From an uncultured Gammaproteobacteria bacterium (GTDB lineage: Bacteria; Pseudomonadota; Gammaproteobacteria; HK1): DNA of 64,000 nt. Position 1 is the stretch's first letter. Each line of letters begins with the position of its first letter. The translations under genes and the position numbers were made by a program. Shown here piece by piece: positions 2,509-63,766 of this stretch. Below the pieces are notes generated by a model. The model did no database searches. It was not told the DNA's origin and was given only the letters and a program-made list of their open reading frames with translations. The DNA lies in NCBI GenBank assembly GCA_947258715.1, contig CAMYJH010000014.1:1-64000 (forward strand), given 5' to 3'.

Positions 2509-3054
2509 TCAGGCCGTTAGCTCTCGAGGCCGGGTGACGCCGATAAGCTCGGCGCAGCCGGGCTCCAGATGCGACCAGTCGTCCGGCATCGACAGCCGCG
2601 CAAGCGCCGCAGTGGGCAGCGGCGGACTGTTTCCCGAATCGCCGATCGGCGATCCCGAAAGGTAGGCCGCCAGATCTTCCAGTCCCGGGTTGTGGCCCAC
2701 GATCATGCAGCGTCCGCCGGTCTCGTAACCCGCAAGCACCTGAAGCAGCGTCGTCACGTCGGCGAGATAAATCTCTTCCTGCCAGCGGACGATGGATTCG
2801 GGGATCTCTGCGTGGCGGCAAAATCTCAAGGTCGTCTGCCGGGCGCGTTCGGCGGTGGAGCTCACGATGTGGTCGGGCGTCAGCCCTTGCGCGCGCATCC
2901 AGCGCGCCATGCGCTTGACCGCTTTTCGGCCCCGCTTCGCGAGCGGTCTCTGAAAATCATCCTCGGCACCGGTATTCCAGTCGGATTTGCCGTGGCGAAA
3001 AATCAGCAGCTCGCGCGCCATAAGTTTTTGGGCTCGTTGCGACGAGTCAATCAT
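2509..3054 (-). CDS. SixA-type phosphohistidine phosphatase (histidine phosphatase superfamily)
   Basis: About 181 residues. The opening LLIFRHGKSDWN carries the RHG phosphate-binding and nucleophilic His motif. IVSSTAERARQT supplies the conserved Arg, and MIVGHNPGLEDLA holds the second catalytic His. Length and motif spacing match the SixA branch, whose E. coli member dephosphorylates phosphohistidine on phosphotransferase-type proteins. The target here is unknown. The first ATG is at 3054; an internal ATG at 3021 (MARELLIF) is closer to family N-termini, and neither has a strong ribosome-binding site. It is divergent from ppx across a 55-bp AT-rich gap, so the two may share control. Confidence 0.85.
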   Translation of the reverse strand: MIDSSQRAQKLMARELLIFRHGKSDWNTGAEDDFQRPLAKRGRKAVKRMARWMRAQGLTPDHIVSSTAERARQTTLRFCRHAEIPESIVRWQEEIYLADVTTLLQVLAGYETGGRCMIVGHNPGLEDLAAYLSGSPIGDSGNSPPLPTAALARLSMPDDWSHLEPGCAELIGVTRPRELTA

Positions 3055-3109: not shown

Positions 3110-4657
3110 ATGCTTGTAAAGTCTGATAACGGCGATCCTGCTTCTCCACAATCACGCAGCGCAGATGCCAACTCCGCCGAAGTGATCGCAGCGGTGGACC
3201 TCGGCTCTAACAGCTTCCACATGAAAGTCGCGCGGGTCATCGATGGACAGCTCTCGGTCATCGACCGCATGCGCGATCCGGTGCGCCTGGCGGCGGGATT
3301 GAATGCACGAAAGAGACTGGACGAAGACGCGGTCGAGCAGGCCATCGAGTCGCTGAAGCGCTTTGGACAGCGACTTCGCGACCTGCCAAGCGACAACGTG
3401 CGCGCGGTCGGAACCAATACGCTGCGCCAAGCGCGGGATACGGAATCGTTTCTCGCCAGCGCGGAGGCCGCGTTGGGGCATCCGATCCAAATCATTTCCG
3501 GGCGCGAGGAAGCGCGGCTCATCTATATGGGCGTCGCGCACAGCACCGCCCAGGACGAGGGACGCAAGCTGGTGGTGGACATCGGCGGCGGCAGCACCGA
3601 AGTGATCATCGGCCGCCACTTCGAGCCGCTGATTACCGAAAGCCTCTACATGGGCTGCGTCGGCATGAGTCGACGGTTCTTCGCCGAGGGCGTCATCGAC
3701 GCGACCCAAATGCGCCACGCGGTGCTCGCGGCGAGACAGGAGCTGGAGCACGTGGAGAAGACCTTTCTGGATATCGGCTGGGACGTGGCCATCGGATCGT
3801 CGGGCACCATTCGAAATGTCGGTGAGGTGATCGTGAACCAGGAGTGGAGCCGGAAAGGGATCACCGCCAAGGCGCTATCCAAGCTGCGCCACGCCGTTGT
3901 TGATGCGGGCAGCGTGGACAAGCTGGATTTTCCCGGTCTGCAGCCGGAGCGCGCGCCCGTTTTTCCGGGCGGGGTCGCGGTTCTCACGGCGGTGTTTGAG
4001 GGGCTGGAGATCAAGCGCATGACGGTCGCCGACGGCGCGCTCCGCGAAGGGCTGCTCTACGACCTCATCGGGCGGCTGGGTTACGGCGACGTGCGCGGCG
4101 CCACCATCGACGATTGGTGTCGGCGCTACCGGGTGGACGACGCCCAGTCGCGTCGGGTGGCCGCGACCGCCGCCGCGCTGCTGGATCGAACCGCCGGGGC
4201 ATGGGAATTGAGCAAGAAAAGCTTCAGCCAGCTTCTGGTGTGGGCGGCGCGGCTGCATGAAATCGGCCTCGATATCGCCCACAGTCAGTACCACAAGCAT
4301 GGCGCCTACGTGATCGGCAACGCCGACCTGGCGGGCTTTTCCCGTCAGGAGCAGGCAGAGATCGCGGCCCTGGTGAGGGTGCACCGGCGCAAGTTCGCGG
4401 GCGAAGATTTCGACCCGCTGCCCAAGCGCCAGCGGGCCCGTCTTTTGCGCCTGGCGGTGCTGCTGCGCGTTGCCGTCGCCCTGCACCGGGGACGCTACGA
4501 TCTCGATCTCGACGGGCTCGAGGTCGATGCCAAAGCCGATTCCTTATCGCTTGCCTTCCCGCCCGGCTGGCTCGAGGACCACCCGCTCACCGCGGCGGAC
4601 CTGTCACGGGAACAGGCGTATTTGAAAGATGCGGGCGTCACGCTTCGCTTCGAGTAG
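3110..4657 (+). CDS. ppx: Exopolyphosphatase (Ppx/GppA family)
   Basis: 515 residues, the usual Ppx length. The actin/ASKHA-fold phosphate-binding elements are visible: AAVDLGSNSFHMKVAR near residue 28, GTNTLRQARD near 103, SGREEARLIYMGVAH near 128, and VVDIGGGSTEVIIG near 147. The C-terminal third has the HD-like helical domain (ARLHEIGLDIAHSQYHKHG), which favours the longer Ppx form. Ppx hydrolyses terminal phosphates from polyphosphate; GppA-type members also act on pppGpp, and sequence alone does not separate them. The neighbouring SixA and CHAD genes fit a polyphosphate role. No ppk is in the window. Confidence 0.9.
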   Translation: MLVKSDNGDPASPQSRSADANSAEVIAAVDLGSNSFHMKVARVIDGQLSVIDRMRDPVRLAAGLNARKRLDEDAVEQAIESLKRFGQRLRDLPSDNVRAVGTNTLRQARDTESFLASAEAALGHPIQIISGREEARLIYMGVAHSTAQDEGRKLVVDIGGGSTEVIIGRHFEPLITESLYMGCVGMSRRFFAEGVIDATQMRHAVLAARQELEHVEKTFLDIGWDVAIGSSGTIRNVGEVIVNQEWSRKGITAKALSKLRHAVVDAGSVDKLDFPGLQPERAPVFPGGVAVLTAVFEGLEIKRMTVADGALREGLLYDLIGRLGYGDVRGATIDDWCRRYRVDDAQSRRVAATAAALLDRTAGAWELSKKSFSQLLVWAARLHEIGLDIAHSQYHKHGAYVIGNADLAGFSRQEQAEIAALVRVHRRKFAGEDFDPLPKRQRARLLRLAVLLRVAVALHRGRYDLDLDGLEVDAKADSLSLAFPPGWLEDHPLTAADLSREQAYLKDAGVTLRFE

Positions 4658-4922: not shown

Positions 4923-6521
4923 ATGAAAAACAGCACACTCGTCGGCATCAACGAACCGATCGCCTACGTCCTCGAAAACGAGGCCGAGGGCCGGCGTGCG
5001 CTCAAAGCGCTGGAGTCGGCTTTCAGCACCCGTCGCGAGCGCTTGCCGGAGAACGATCTTGTCTACTTCGACACCTTCGACTGGCGTCTCTACGAGCGCG
5101 GCTTCAGACTGGCTACCGGTTGCCGCAACGGCGCCAAGATGCTGAAACTTGAATCCCCAGGTTTTTCCCTCGAAGCGCCGCTGGCAAAAAAAACCGCGCC
5201 GAGCTTCGGGCCGCGACTGCCGGAGGGCCCGCTGAAGGAGCTGCTTTGTCCAATTCTGGAGCTTCGCCGACTGCTGCCGCTGATGAAGATCGCCATCCGC
5301 AGCCACGGGCTTCGGATCCTCGACGGCGAGGAGAAGACGGTGGCGCGGGTCCATCTGGTGCATACCGACACCGCGCCGCCAGGCTCGCGACGCGCCCCGA
5401 TACCGCTGGCGCCGAGGCTCACGCTCACACCCATACGCGGCTACGCCGATCCGGCCGCACGGGTGATTCGTCATCTGGATACCGAGGTCGGCCTGGCACG
5501 GGCGTCTTCGAGTGCCTTCGACGAGATGCTCGCATCGGTGGAACAGCAGCCCGCAAGCTACAGCTCGAAGCTCCTTCTACCCATCCACCGCCGCATGAGC
5601 GCCGGAGAGGCGGTGCAGGTGATCTGCCGCCACCTGCTGAAGACCATGAAGGCGAACGAAGACGGTGTGCGCCGCGACTTAGACAGCGAATTCCTTCACG
5701 ACTTTCGGGTCGCGGTGCGCCGCACGCGGGCGGCGCTGGCGCAGCTCGAAGGGGTGTTTGACGCCGAAGCGCGGCGATTTTTCAAAAGCGAGTTCAAGTG
5801 GCTCGGCGCCATTACCGGCCCGGTACGAGATCTCGACGTCCACCTGCTGCAGATGGAGCACTACCGCGCAGCCCTGCCTTTAGAGGTGAGGCGCGATCTC
5901 GAGCCGCTCGCCACTTATCTTCGCCAGCACCGGGAGGCCGAGCGGCGAAAGCTCAAAACCAATCTTGCTACGCAGCGATACCGCCGGCTGGTGGAGCGCT
6001 GGCGAAAGTATCTGCAGGCGCCGCTGCCGGAGCCCGCGGTGTCGAAACACGCCCACCTTCCGGTGATCGAGGTCGCCTCCGCTCGCATCTGGCGCGCTTA
6101 CCGCAAAGTGGAAGACATGACCGCGGGCATTGACGACCTTTCCCCGGCCGATAAGCTGCACCGACTGCGTATTGGGTGCAAAAAGCTTCGCTACCTGCTG
6201 GAGTTTTTTCACCCCCTTTACGATGCACGCGCCGTTCAGCCCCTGATCAAATCGCTGAAGCAGTTGCAGGACAGTCTCGGGGATTTCAACGACCTCGAGG
6301 TGCAGCAGGTGGCGCTTAAGCGGTTTGCCCGGGAAATGAAGCACGAGGGACTGGCATCGGTGGACTGCCTGCTGGCGATGGGGCGCCTGCAGGGTCACCA
6401 CGATGAGCGTAAGACGACCGAGCGCCAGCGCTTCGCCCAGTGCCTTGGGGCATTCGACGCGCCGGAGAACAAGAAGCGCTTCGCGCGATTGTTCGACTCC
6501 ACACTCGGCAACGTCGGGTGA
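4923..6521 (+). CDS. CYTH-like/CHAD domain protein, probably polyphosphate-associated
   Basis: 532 residues. The first ~200 look like a degenerate CYTH/triphosphate-tunnel domain: YFDTFDWRLYERGFRL is recognisable, but the usual opening ExExK metal-binding motif is absent. From about residue 215 to the end is a CHAD domain: conserved His/Arg helices HDFRVAVRRTRAAL and LHRLRIGCKKLRYLLEFF, with many Lys/Arg. CHAD domains bind polyphosphate and locate to polyphosphate granules in characterised bacteria. The gene follows ppx by 265 bp and its stop codon overlaps the start of a ParA-type ATPase, so the two are probably co-translated. Loss of the ExExK motif suggests the N-terminal domain is not an active tunnel enzyme. 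Confidence 0.85.
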   Translation: MKNSTLVGINEPIAYVLENEAEGRRALKALESAFSTRRERLPENDLVYFDTFDWRLYERGFRLATGCRNGAKMLKLESPGFSLEAPLAKKTAPSFGPRLPEGPLKELLCPILELRRLLPLMKIAIRSHGLRILDGEEKTVARVHLVHTDTAPPGSRRAPIPLAPRLTLTPIRGYADPAARVIRHLDTEVGLARASSSAFDEMLASVEQQPASYSSKLLLPIHRRMSAGEAVQVICRHLLKTMKANEDGVRRDLDSEFLHDFRVAVRRTRAALAQLEGVFDAEARRFFKSEFKWLGAITGPVRDLDVHLLQMEHYRAALPLEVRRDLEPLATYLRQHREAERRKLKTNLATQRYRRLVERWRKYLQAPLPEPAVSKHAHLPVIEVASARIWRAYRKVEDMTAGIDDLSPADKLHRLRIGCKKLRYLLEFFHPLYDARAVQPLIKSLKQLQDSLGDFNDLEVQQVALKRFAREMKHEGLASVDCLLAMGRLQGHHDERKTTERQRFAQCLGAFDAPENKKRFARLFDSTLGNVG

Positions 6522-7297
6522 AGGTTTACGCCAGCTACAACATCAAGGGCGGGGTCGGAAAGACCACCGCCGCGGTCAATCTGGCCTTCCTCGCCAGCCA
6601 GCAGGGTCAGCGCACCCTGGTCTGGGACCTGGACCCCCAAGGCGCGGCCAGCTATTTCTTTCGCGTGAAGCCGAAATGGAAGGGCGGGGCCAAGGCGCTG
6701 ATACGGGGAAAACGCAGTCCGGAACCCCTGATCCGCGGCACCGATTTCGAGCGCCTGGACCTGCTTCGCGCCCACTTCGGATACCGGCACATGGACGTGG
6801 TGCTGTCGAAGCTCAAACGTCCCGACCGCCGCCTTGCCAAAGTGCTGGCCCTGCTCAAGGGCGAATACGATCGCGTATTTCTCGACTGTCCGGCGGGCAT
6901 CACCCTCGCTTCCGAGAGCGTGTTCCGGGCAGCCAACGTGCTGCTGGTCCCCACCATCCCGACCACGCTTTCCCTGCGCACCCTGCTTCAGCTTCTCAAA
7001 CACCTGAAGGGCGAGGGCGCGCGCCGACTTTCGGTGATGCCTTTTTTCAGCATGGTCGACAGGCGTAAATCGCTGCAGCAGCGGATCTGTCAGCAACCGC
7101 CGAATGGAATTCTCAAAAGCCACATTCCTTACTTAAGCGCCATCGAGCAGATGGCCGAGCGCCGAGCGCCCCTGCCCAGCTACGCTCCGTCGAGCCCGGC
7201 CGCGGAGGCGTTCAAGGCGCTATGGCGGGAGCTTGAAGCGAGCGATACCCAGGGGGTCTCCCTGAGTCGGCGCGAAGCGGAAGTGGCGATCATCTGA
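6518..7297 (+). CDS. ParA/MinD-type partitioning ATPase coupled to the CHAD gene
   Basis: 259 residues from a GTG at 6518 that overlaps the CHAD stop codon (GTGA). The deviant Walker A motif is intact with its signature Lys (KGGVGKTT, residues 10-17). The A' motif is DLDPQG and the Walker B-like motif is VFLDCPAG. The protein lacks an N-terminal helix-turn-helix and any membrane-targeting tail I can see. That resembles small ParA proteins that move cargo over the nucleoid rather than plasmid ParA regulators. No parB-like gene or parS-like repeat lies nearby. Co-translation with a polyphosphate-binding CHAD protein suggests the cargo could be polyphosphate granules, but this is inference. An in-frame ATG at 6440 is less likely than the overlapping GTG. 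Confidence 0.85.
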   Translation: MKVYASYNIKGGVGKTTAAVNLAFLASQQGQRTLVWDLDPQGAASYFFRVKPKWKGGAKALIRGKRSPEPLIRGTDFERLDLLRAHFGYRHMDVVLSKLKRPDRRLAKVLALLKGEYDRVFLDCPAGITLASESVFRAANVLLVPTIPTTLSLRTLLQLLKHLKGEGARRLSVMPFFSMVDRRKSLQQRICQQPPNGILKSHIPYLSAIEQMAERRAPLPSYAPSSPAAEAFKALWRELEASDTQGVSLSRREAEVAII

Positions 7298-7640: not shown

Positions 7641-9584
7641 TCAGATAGGCTCGGGACGCCCGATGAAGTAACCCTGAACGCCGTCGAAGCCGAGCGCCTC
7701 GACCGCTTCGAGCATGGGCTCGGATTCCACGTGCAGGGCGATGGTCTTGGTGCCCAGCGCCCGCGCCGTGGCGACCAGGGAGCGCACGTAGACCCGCTTG
7801 TCTTGTTCCGCTTCCAGTCCGCGGATGAAGGAACCATCGATCTTGGTGTAGTCCGCCTTGAGGCTCTTTAAATAATCCAGCGCCAGATCTCTGGAACCGC
7901 AGTGATCCACGCCGAAGCCCGCGCCTGCGGCCTTGAGCCTGCGAGCCATTTCCAGCACCGTCTCCGGCATGCTCGCCACCATGGTCTCTGTTACCTCGAA
8001 ATCGAGGCGAGCCGCGATCCCGGGACGCGCTCTGAGCGCGTCGAGCAGCCAGTCAGAAAACGCTTCGCTCTTGAGCGCGTGGCGCGACAGGTTGAGCGCG
8101 AATCGATTTTGGCGTTGCTCGTCTTTGCCGGCCACGTCCATGACCGCCTGAACGATAGCCCGGTCCAGCGCCTCGGCCAGCCCCATGCGAGCCGCCATGG
8201 GGAAGAAAACCCCGGCGGGCACCAGCTCCCCCGCCTGGTCCATCAGGCGCGCAAACACTTCCAGCTGAATCGGCTCGCCATCAGCCTGTGCCGAGCGCAC
8301 CGGCTGAACGTTCAGCACCACTTCGCCCTGGTCTATGACGTGGTTCAAAATTTCCCGCCAGCGATCCTCCCGGTGCACGTCGCGGCCGGCGGCGGTCTGC
8401 CCGTCGTCATAGAGGTGCCACAGATTGACGCCGTCGCTCTCGGCGTTGGCGAGCGCCGACTCCGCCCGCTCGCTCAACACTTCGGCGGTTTGGCCGCCGC
8501 CGAAGTGGGCGAAGCCGATATTGACCCCGGCAGGGTCAAGCCCGGCGACGCTGACATCGGCCAGCTCTCGCACCAGGGGCGTGGCCGTCTGCTCCACCTC
8601 GGACCTGGGGATATCCGGCAGGATGATCCCGAACAGCCCGCCGCCGAGCCGGGCGGCAAATCCCTCCCGCTCGGCCACGATGGGGCGGATCCGATCCGCC
8701 GCGCGCTGCAGCAGCGCGTCGCCCAGCTGGTAGCCATCGGCGAGATTCGCGGCTTCTAAACCGCGTATCCCCACCACGCCCACCAGTCCGTAGGCGTGCT
8801 CGTCCCTGCTGGCGGTCAACTGCTCCAGCTCGCGCTCGAACGCCCGCTGGTTGCCGAGACCGGTGACCGGATCGCCGTAGGCCGCCTCACGCAGGCGTTC
8901 CGACTGCTCGTGCTGCTCGGCGAGCAGGTCCTCGACTTTCTCGGTCATGTCGTTCATCGCCAGAACCACGCGACGCAGTTCCCGGGAGCTTGGAATTTGA
9001 TCGATACGCGGAAACTCCCTTTGGGCTATGGCAAGCGCCTGGGACTCCACCCGGCTGAGCGAGCGCAACACCACCCGCAGCGCGATGACGGTGACAACGA
9101 GGGCGACCGCCAGCGCAGCCAAAGACCACCAGAAGGTCTGCACCGCGTTGCTCCACAGCTGTGTGTAGGCGAGCCCGGGGTGGCTCGCCACGCGCAGCTG
9201 GCCCGCCTGTCGCCAGCCTGACATCAGCTTGGCGCTCGCCTCCGGAGTATTGAGCGGCAATTGGCGCACGAACCAGGCGGGAACGCCATAGACCTTCAGC
9301 GGCGGCTCGCGGGAAATCAGGGTCTCGCCCTGAAGATTCTCGACGATGATGCGCCGGTACTCGCCGCGGTCGAAGACCGCGTCCACCATGGATTTCATTC
9401 GCAGAACGTCGTCCATGTGCGGGCTCAGCGAAAGCGCAAGCGAGGTGGCCGTATCCTGGGCGTGGGACTCGAGCTGGTTCACCAGGTAGCGGCGGGTGTT
9501 GTCGACCGTGATGCTGAAGGTGCCCGCGAATACGAGCATGAACATCAGCGCAAGGATCACAATCAGCTGGCGTAGAAGCGTCAT
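7641..9584 (-). CDS. lapD: LapD-type inside-out c-di-GMP receptor
   Basis: 647 residues. An N-terminal membrane helix (residues 5-25) leads to a periplasmic LapD/MoxY-type module with the VYGVPAWFVRQLPL stretch, then a second helix (about 149-172), a HAMP-like linker, a GGDEF domain and an EAL domain. Both catalytic signatures are degenerate: GGDEF reads GGGLF and EAL reads EVF. That is what a receptor rather than a cyclase or phosphodiesterase shows. KIDGSFIRGL of the EAL fold is kept. LapD binds c-di-GMP inside the cell and sequesters the protease LapG outside, keeping a surface adhesin attached. lapG lies 22 bp upstream in the same operon. No LapA adhesin or LapBCE exporter is in the window. 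Confidence 0.9.
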   Translation of the reverse strand: MTLLRQLIVILALMFMLVFAGTFSITVDNTRRYLVNQLESHAQDTATSLALSLSPHMDDVLRMKSMVDAVFDRGEYRRIIVENLQGETLISREPPLKVYGVPAWFVRQLPLNTPEASAKLMSGWRQAGQLRVASHPGLAYTQLWSNAVQTFWWSLAALAVALVVTVIALRVVLRSLSRVESQALAIAQREFPRIDQIPSSRELRRVVLAMNDMTEKVEDLLAEQHEQSERLREAAYGDPVTGLGNQRAFERELEQLTASRDEHAYGLVGVVGIRGLEAANLADGYQLGDALLQRAADRIRPIVAEREGFAARLGGGLFGIILPDIPRSEVEQTATPLVRELADVSVAGLDPAGVNIGFAHFGGGQTAEVLSERAESALANAESDGVNLWHLYDDGQTAAGRDVHREDRWREILNHVIDQGEVVLNVQPVRSAQADGEPIQLEVFARLMDQAGELVPAGVFFPMAARMGLAEALDRAIVQAVMDVAGKDEQRQNRFALNLSRHALKSEAFSDWLLDALRARPGIAARLDFEVTETMVASMPETVLEMARRLKAAGAGFGVDHCGSRDLALDYLKSLKADYTKIDGSFIRGLEAEQDKRVYVRSLVATARALGTKTIALHVESEPMLEAVEALGFDGVQGYFIGRPEPI

Positions 9585-9606
9585 GCCCCTCGTCGCCCTG
9601 GAGGCA

Positions 9607-10320
9607 TCATCCGGAACGGTTCTCGATCAGGCCCTCTTTTTTCATACGCTTGAGCAGACCGCGCCACTGGGCAAGGGTGGAAGAGTCGCTGACGCGGCGT
9701 CCCAGAGAACGCTGCACCGCCAGCCAGAGTCCGTCGCCGTTGAAGCTGTAGACGGGTATCAGATCGGTGCGCTCGGAGCCGCGCATAATGGTCTGATTGT
9801 AGTTGTCTAAAATTAGCGGGTCGGCGTCGGGGGTAGGATAGTAAGCCAGCACCATATGGGTTTGTTTGAGCGCGGGCGCGCGCACGTAAGTAATGAGTAA
9901 GCGCTCCCTGGGCACCTCGAGCTCGAGAAGGGTGAAATATTTGCTGATGGAATAGTCCTCGCAGTCGCCGCCATTGGTGCCGATCATTTCCAGCGGCGTG
10001 GCCCAGTAGTCCGCCTGGCCCCAGTGCTTGTCGTCTGTGAGCCAGGGGATGCGATTGAAGAAATCGTTTGCCGCCTTGCGCTTCGTTTCTTCCTCGCTGG
10101 CTACGTTGGTTTGCATGACCTGCTGCCAGTCCATAAGTCGCTTGGTTGCTTCTCTACCGTAGGTCGTTTTGAAGTTTTGAATCACCTCATCGCTCAGCCG
10201 GCTGAGTTGCGCCAGCGCACCGCTCTCGCTGAGTAACAATAGAAGCCCAAGCGCAGTCGCGCTTACTCGCCGAAAACACAATCTGCGGTGACGAAGGTGA
10301 TTCTGGTTCTTGTCGAGCAT
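9607..10320 (-). CDS. lapG: LapG-type periplasmic cysteine protease (transglutaminase-like)
   Basis: About 237 residues from the ATG at 10320, which has an AGGCAGG ribosome-binding site 6 bases ahead; a GTG further up at 10344 is less likely. An N-terminal signal (LGLLLLLSESGALAQ) is followed by the bacterial transglutaminase-like cysteine peptidase fold. The triad is visible in GGDCEDYS (Cys), THMVLAYY (His) and LILDNYNQ (Asp). LapG cleaves the N-terminal region of large LapA-type adhesins and releases cells from a surface; calcium binding is typical. It is co-transcribed with lapD, its inhibitor. Confidence 0.92.
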   Translation of the reverse strand: MLDKNQNHLRHRRLCFRRVSATALGLLLLLSESGALAQLSRLSDEVIQNFKTTYGREATKRLMDWQQVMQTNVASEEETKRKAANDFFNRIPWLTDDKHWGQADYWATPLEMIGTNGGDCEDYSISKYFTLLELEVPRERLLITYVRAPALKQTHMVLAYYPTPDADPLILDNYNQTIMRGSERTDLIPVYSFNGDGLWLAVQRSLGRRVSDSSTLAQWRGLLKRMKKEGLIENRSG

Positions 10321-10628
10321 CACGGACCTGCCTATGTACGCCACGCCCCTGTGGGGCAGTAGGCGCAGGCGATTATTGGTCAGCTGCCAGCACCCGGCGG
10401 TATCCTAGGTTACGCCCACTAGCGGCACAACCGGCGAGCGGGACCCGGTTTCAGTCTTTTGCGCCACGGTGCCGTCGCTATTCACCACCAGTCGGCCGCG
10501 TGCGCCTTGAACGCAAGGCGTCTGGCACCATCGAGGGGCGATCCAAGATGGCACGTTGCACTTCAACTCAGAATGCGGATAATGCCGCCCCTCATTTCGT
10601 TCATCTGCTGGTTTACGGGGAGACGCCC
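10321..10628. other. Divergent intergenic region, lapG / speD
   Basis: This 308-bp stretch separates minus-strand lapG and plus-strand speD and should hold both promoters, but I could not pick a convincing -35/-10 pair. A minus-strand open frame across it ends in a hydrophilic stretch (GRLVVNSDGTVAQ) reminiscent of extracellular beta-rich proteins. It has no start codon independent of the speD region, and I do not treat it as a gene. Confidence 0.4.

Positions 10629-60254: not shown

Positions 60255-63766
<3,512 letters not shown>

Follow-up and report, generated by a model that had tools for sequence, protein, structure and literature searches.

A CHAD protein gene coupled to a gene for a ParA-type ATPase as a candidate system for positioning polyphosphate granules

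The CHAD-ParA locus

The window analysed here, that is, the whole stretch of 64,000 nucleotides from an uncultured gammaproteobacterium, contains a gene for a long CHAD protein and, overlapping its end on the same strand, a gene for a ParA/MinD-type ATPase (Table 1). The CHAD protein combines a degenerate domain of the TTM/CYTH fold (about residues 13-205) with a long CHAD domain (about residues 210-525) predicted to bind polyphosphate (polyP). A ppx/gppA-type gene and a gene for a SixA-like phosphatase adjoin the pair, as a preliminary description of this DNA had stated. The ORF program had begun the ATPase frame further upstream, at GTG 6440, and we set the start at the later GTG because it leaves nine residues before KGGVGKT, as in the orthologs. 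From this start follow the GTGA overlap with the CHAD stop codon, in agreement with the earlier reading, and a product of the length given in Table 1; the overlap suggests that translation of the ATPase is coupled to that of the CHAD protein. The ppx and CHAD genes are separated by 265 bp, and no sigma-70-like promoter was found between them, which equals the chance expectation for the region.

Table 1 Features of the CHAD-ParA locus in window coordinates
Feature	Position	Strand	Details
SixA-like histidine phosphatase	2509..3054	-	divergent from the CHAD-ParA pair
ppx/gppA-type exopolyphosphatase	3110..4657	+	515 aa; Ppx-GppA 2e-77; upstream of the CHAD-ParA pair
CHAD protein	4923..6521	+	532 aa; ATG 4923, TGA 6519-6521; Pfam CHAD 1.3e-61 (residues 235-465)
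N-terminal pseudo-TTM domain, residues 1-205	4923..5537	+	lacks the catalytic ExExK motif
CHAD core with predicted polyP-contact residues	5625..6317	+	H259, R262, R266, R302, R423, Y424
GTGA, start/stop overlap of the CHAD and ATPase genes	6518..6521	+	4 bp
ParA/MinD-type ATPase	6518..7297	+	259 aa; start GTG 6518; deviant Walker A KGGVGKT, DLDPQ, FLDCP; Pfam AAA_31 6e-26, CbiA 2e-14

The pair is located on a 280-kb contig amid housekeeping genes, namely argS, priA, a penicillin-binding protein gene, pilM, gltB and gyrB, and therefore has no plasmid context. A genome-wide search for ParB_N detected no parB at the locus; the sole ParB_N gene of the genome (G000:C9:63592) is on a different contig and adjoins another ParA gene (C9:62546), so the CHAD-linked ATPase is distinct from that of chromosomal partition. 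Both absences had been claimed from the window, and both hold for the locus. The ppk1 gene of this genome is likewise on a different contig from the pair.

The window ends at gyrB (60255-62681), about 53 kb from the pair, and a 357-aa ORF next to it (62693-63766) may be recF; gyrB is often found near oriC. Convergent with the pair are genes for a LapD-like GGDEF/EAL protein (7641-9584) and a BTLCP-type protease (9607-10344), which together look like a Lap biofilm module.

Predicted anatomy of the two proteins

The AlphaFold2 model of the CHAD protein (pLDDT 94) matches the CtCHAD-polyP complex 6qva from about residue 210 onwards (Foldseek E 4.9e-17, TMt 0.93), while its N-terminal 200 residues or so match TTM/CYTH folds such as 2gfg (E 1e-4, TMt 0.65), and the model as a whole matches full-length YgiF (5a60, E 2.5e-11). 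In CtCHAD, polyP is contacted by H253, R256, R260, R296, R418 and Y419 (PMC6537752). Spacing and alignment place these at the six residues of the CHAD core listed in Table 1, none of which varies in any of 51 aligned relatives, so that, judged from the alignment, every contact tested appears to be kept in the protein of the window. The link to polyP that had been proposed earlier is thus strengthened by the invariance of these residues, and also by the recurrence of ppk, ppx, pst and sixA genes as neighbours, described below.

The ExExK motif is absent from this protein and from 81 of 82 ParA-associated CHAD proteins; in eight canonical CYTH-CHAD proteins not associated with ParA it is retained. 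Two genomes, G006 and G010, hold both kinds, an ExExK-bearing CHAD protein encoded near ppk and a degenerate one encoded with ParA. Because the motif is missing from the TTM fold, the CHAD protein looks like an adaptor and not like an enzyme, and for the same reason we do not favour an active polyphosphatase. No long disordered basic tail of the kind typical of ParB/McdB-type partners is present in the AlphaFold2 model. The idea of a ParA-specific C-terminal tail was dropped, since CtCHAD has the same C-terminal helix. The protein resembles phosins and other CHAD proteins (CtCHAD 6qva, Escherichia coli YgiF 5a60 and S. chartreusis PptA) in its CHAD fold and in all the polyP-contact residues tested, but it has in addition a TTM domain that is catalytically degenerate, and its gene is coupled to one for ParA; with the active TTM/CYTH triphosphatases of the YgiF type it has the TTM fold in common but not ExExK.

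By its motifs and predicted fold, the ATPase is a member of the ParA/MinD superfamily. Its model (pLDDT 88) resembles ParA-ATP 8ray (Foldseek E 7e-20, TMt 0.87) and Soj 2bek most closely, and McdA 6nop is also high in the ranking; identity with the cellulose protein BcsQ or with MinD was ruled out by curated cut-offs and by this ranking. K10, K15, D37, D39 and D123, which comprise the signature lysine of the deviant Walker A motif and the Walker A'/B aspartates, are invariant in 69 of 69 ATPases, and the protein is basic (pI 10.3). R183, which we take to be the first of the two DNA-binding arginines of Soj, is kept in 68 of the 69, and the second, at the position that we presume for it, is not kept.

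Conservation and phosphate-related gene context of the pair

The preliminary description had called for a survey of CHAD-ParA neighbours across genomes and had allowed that the pair might be limited to this strain; instead, it spans several phyla. Among 55 relatives, a ParA open frame adjoins ten further CHAD matches (L006-L013, L015 and L016), the start codon overlaps in 8 of the 11 pairs when that of the window is included, and no ParA frame was found beside L014 or the lower-scoring CHAD matches. Within 232 genomes of the class, 34 loci of the family ParA were found, and 28 of them have CHAD immediately upstream in the same orientation, among them all 27 that score above 300 bits; the six unlinked loci score below 300 bits. 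A scan of genome contigs with the ParA family yielded at least 594 stretches, the best 80 of which were examined for neighbours. CHAD adjoins ParA in 56 of these 80, half of the 56 (28) with the 4-bp overlap (-1 offset), and phmmer added three more adjoining CHAD genes (L048, L051 and L097), giving 59 linked loci. Within these best 80, linked loci carry the labels Gamma-, Beta- and Deltaproteobacteria, Actinomycetota and Planctomycetota, and the same pair occurs on plasmids of the alphaproteobacterium Paracoccus. An overlap and a gene order that recur in dozens of genomes are more than chance. Cultured carriers of the linked pair include Methylotuvimicrobium buryatense (L052), Nitrosomonas marina (L091) and Sedimenticola selenatireducens (L034). 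In a Geodermatophilaceae genome, a second gene of the CHAD cluster (L093, 4165-5682) follows the pair about 0.9 kb downstream.

At the limits used, the family ParA was found in 6 of 72,556 plasmid records and in none of 50,697 phages, and these counts, together with the lack of ParB at the locus, rule out a plasmid or phage partition cassette. The Paracoccus copies H1, H4 and H5 have CHAD upstream of ParA; a Pontibacter plasmid copy (H6) is at the edge of its record, where no CHAD gene is visible.

Linkage is not the only arrangement. In 13 genomes the family ParA has moved away, in Methylobacter and other methanotrophs to a place beside genes for glycogen phosphorylase or D-Tyr-tRNA deacylase, and each of the 13 keeps one long CHAD gene (450-524 bits, full model). 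Over 81 pairs, the distance matrices of ParA and CHAD show a correlation of r=0.84, against a maximum of 0.22 in 2000 shuffles; these mirror trees and the retention of both genes are in part a matter of shared ancestry. Across the phylum, the family ParA is present in 56 of 348 genomes, and among those examined the gene is linked to CHAD in only six (G000, G359, G594, G372, G394 and G521), the remainder being solo genes in housekeeping contexts. A CHAD protein is encoded in 39 of the 56 ParA-positive genomes and in 63 of the 292 others (Fisher 7e-12, without phylogenetic correction), and no CHAD match was found in 17 of the 56. The solo genes and these 17 genomes indicate that the reach of the ParA family exceeds that of the pair, the operon with CHAD being the tight form of the family. 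In Methylobacter and its kin (L038, L053, L062, L067, L069, L078 and L088), the family ParA stands beside glycogen phosphorylase, in some cases also MgtE, and CHAD was found elsewhere in the genomes checked; a link to another storage polymer is possible.

A polyP or phosphate gene was found in the retrieved flanks of 23 of the 59 linked loci. The neighbours are SixA-like (14), PPK2 (4), PPK1 (3) and PPX (2), besides Pst, PhoU and Na/Pi genes, all counts being approximate in that a single annotated member stands behind some of the cluster labels. A plasmid of Paracoccus marcusii (L151, 1-7249) carries an island of phosphate and polyP genes, in the order pstB-phoU-phoB and then CHAD-ParA-CYTH-NUDIX-CYTH; in G194, PPK1 follows a short way downstream of the pair; and in G162, whose genome has no CHAD match, ppk1 and the family ParA are 10 bp apart (L105, 4171-6417 and 6428-7186). 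In the class, 25 of the 27 genomes with the pair have PPK1, versus 117 of the 205 others, and both exceptions have PPK2. Of the 56 ParA-positive phylum genomes, half (28) have PPK1 and every one of the remaining 28 has PPK2, so every ParA-positive genome checked has one or the other, the PPK2 survey having covered ParA-positive genomes only. The co-occurrence of PPK1 with ParA is therefore supportive in the class and not phylum-wide, and PPK co-occurrence is weak evidence overall. In at least 14 of these 28 PPK1-negative phylum genomes, each of the 14 carrying a solo family ParA (G269, G282, G288, G291, G294, G297, G304, G308, G328, G332, G336, G347, G358 and G370), CHAD and PPK2 are within about 1.5 kb of each other on opposite strands; these stand-alone CHAD genes encode about 320 aa, with a match of fragment length in G269.

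Interpretation and relation to known systems

The evidence strongly supports a functional module of ParA, CHAD and polyP. We favour the explanation, at a probability of roughly 0.57, that the two proteins make up a two-component system for the positioning or partitioning of polyP granules. In the first protein, the CHAD half would hold the surface of the polyP, the N-terminal TTM domain, devoid of the catalytic motif, would be a docking module, and the co-translated ATPase would bind ATP and dimerise on the nucleoid. A granule coated with CHAD protein would come into contact with the ATPase, stimulate hydrolysis and so release it there, and as granules moved they would be spaced along the nucleoid or distributed to both daughter cells, as carboxysomes are by McdA. 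We infer a role in cargo positioning from what ParA folds do and from the binding of CHAD proteins to the granule surface. The preliminary description had regarded the CHAD protein as the natural adaptor; the loss of the TTM catalytic motif lends support to this point, and the reading as a whole is partly supported. Against positioning count the solo ParA genes, the 17 of 56 genomes without CHAD, the single Soj arginine, the folded adaptor without a disordered tail and the location of ppk1 on another contig. A wider claim, that of an ATP-driven partition machine for polyP granules in several phyla, in which a dead TTM-CHAD protein is the adaptor for an orphan ParA and a second ParA subfamily (L149) is independently linked to CHAD, stands in our judgement at even odds.

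The main rival explanation, possible although we think it unlikely, is that the ATPase is a nucleotide-dependent switch acting through the CHAD protein on the synthesis or breakdown of polyP (PPK, PPX, Pst and SixA signalling), the granules not being moved. Some relatives of MinD and ParA, such as BcsQ and FleN, act as regulators, and a switch would suit the phosphate-regulation neighbours (Pst, PhoU, PhoB, SixA, PPK and PPX), an adaptor lacking a ParB-like disordered tail, and the ppk1-parA arrangement without CHAD in G162; it agrees less well with the ranking of solved folds, in which partition ParA (8ray, Soj) and McdA come before BcsQ and FleN, and with the invariance of the deviant Walker A motif and of the hydrolysis-type aspartate. 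It is also conceivable, but improbable, that the pair serves to tether polyP to the chromosome or to couple chromosome segregation to polyP, with the nucleoid or the stress state as the real target, and the end of the window in gyrB, often a neighbour of oriC, would accord with such a role. Granule placement depends on chromosome segregation in Caulobacter, and in Pseudomonas aeruginosa the link between granules and nucleoid is made by AlgP (PMC13052382), which would accord with it too; the separate canonical parA-parB locus of the genome and the lack of a DNA-binding adaptor beside the pair speak against it. Solo ParA genes in varied contexts across the phylum, together with the ParA-positive genomes that lack CHAD, could finally mean that the ATPase is an orphan ParA with a housekeeping role of its own, for which CHAD is a secondary partner and the operon a convenience of some clades. 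This we consider very improbable, given that all high-scoring class members are linked, that linkage recurs in Actinomycetota, Planctomycetota and Alphaproteobacteria, and that both genes are retained after separation.

The granule-positioning reading has its closest parallel in McdAB and other ParA/MinD cargo positioners, which likewise combine a ParA-fold ATPase with the gene for a protein that binds, or in the present case is predicted to bind, the cargo, and no parB. A partner gene next to the ATPase gene and retained together with it, as such systems have, is a feature of the linked form and not of the solo family members. They differ in that the cargo here would be a polyP granule and in that a folded pseudo-TTM-CHAD protein, and no disordered protein of the McdB or ParB kind, would be the adaptor. 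With Soj/ParA of chromosomal ParABS the ATPase has its fold, Walker motifs and C-terminal layout in common, but no ParB gene is present at the CHAD-ParA locus and the genome has its own parAB elsewhere. AlgP of P. aeruginosa addresses the same problem, the number and spacing of granules on the nucleoid, but is a histone-H1-like DNA-binding protein with no known ATPase (PMC9239181, PMC13052382). AlgP is the sole polyP positioning factor in a 2025 review, which gives ATP dependence as 'Unknown' (PMC13052382). The CHAD-ParA pair offers a concrete ATPase-adaptor candidate for how bacteria space and inherit polyP granules; if the reading is true, these granules would join the cargo of ParA ATPases, one class of CHAD proteins would be explained, and a TTM enzyme domain would prove to have turned adaptor.

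Although the preliminary description knew of no system of this kind, a conserved folD-ppk-parA-CYTH-CHAD cluster has been reported in Acidithiobacillus (PMC6416229, PMC10892726), where it was read otherwise, as cAMP signalling and cell division (PMC6416229) or as copper resistance (PMC10892726). In the mainly open-access journal literature searched, and judged mostly by titles and abstracts, we found no paper proposing a ParA for polyP granules. Like the locus of the window, the Acidithiobacillus cluster has parA beside a CHAD gene, and ppk is part of the cluster; it differs in that parA is listed before CHAD and in that the CYTH domain was interpreted as a cyclase or phosphatase. The order parA-CHAD is also that of L149 (G119), with a different short ParA: a MipZ/AAA_31-like protein of 209 aa (8415-9041), distinct from the family, is encoded directly upstream of CHAD (8911-10557), apparently a second, independent ParA-CHAD linkage.
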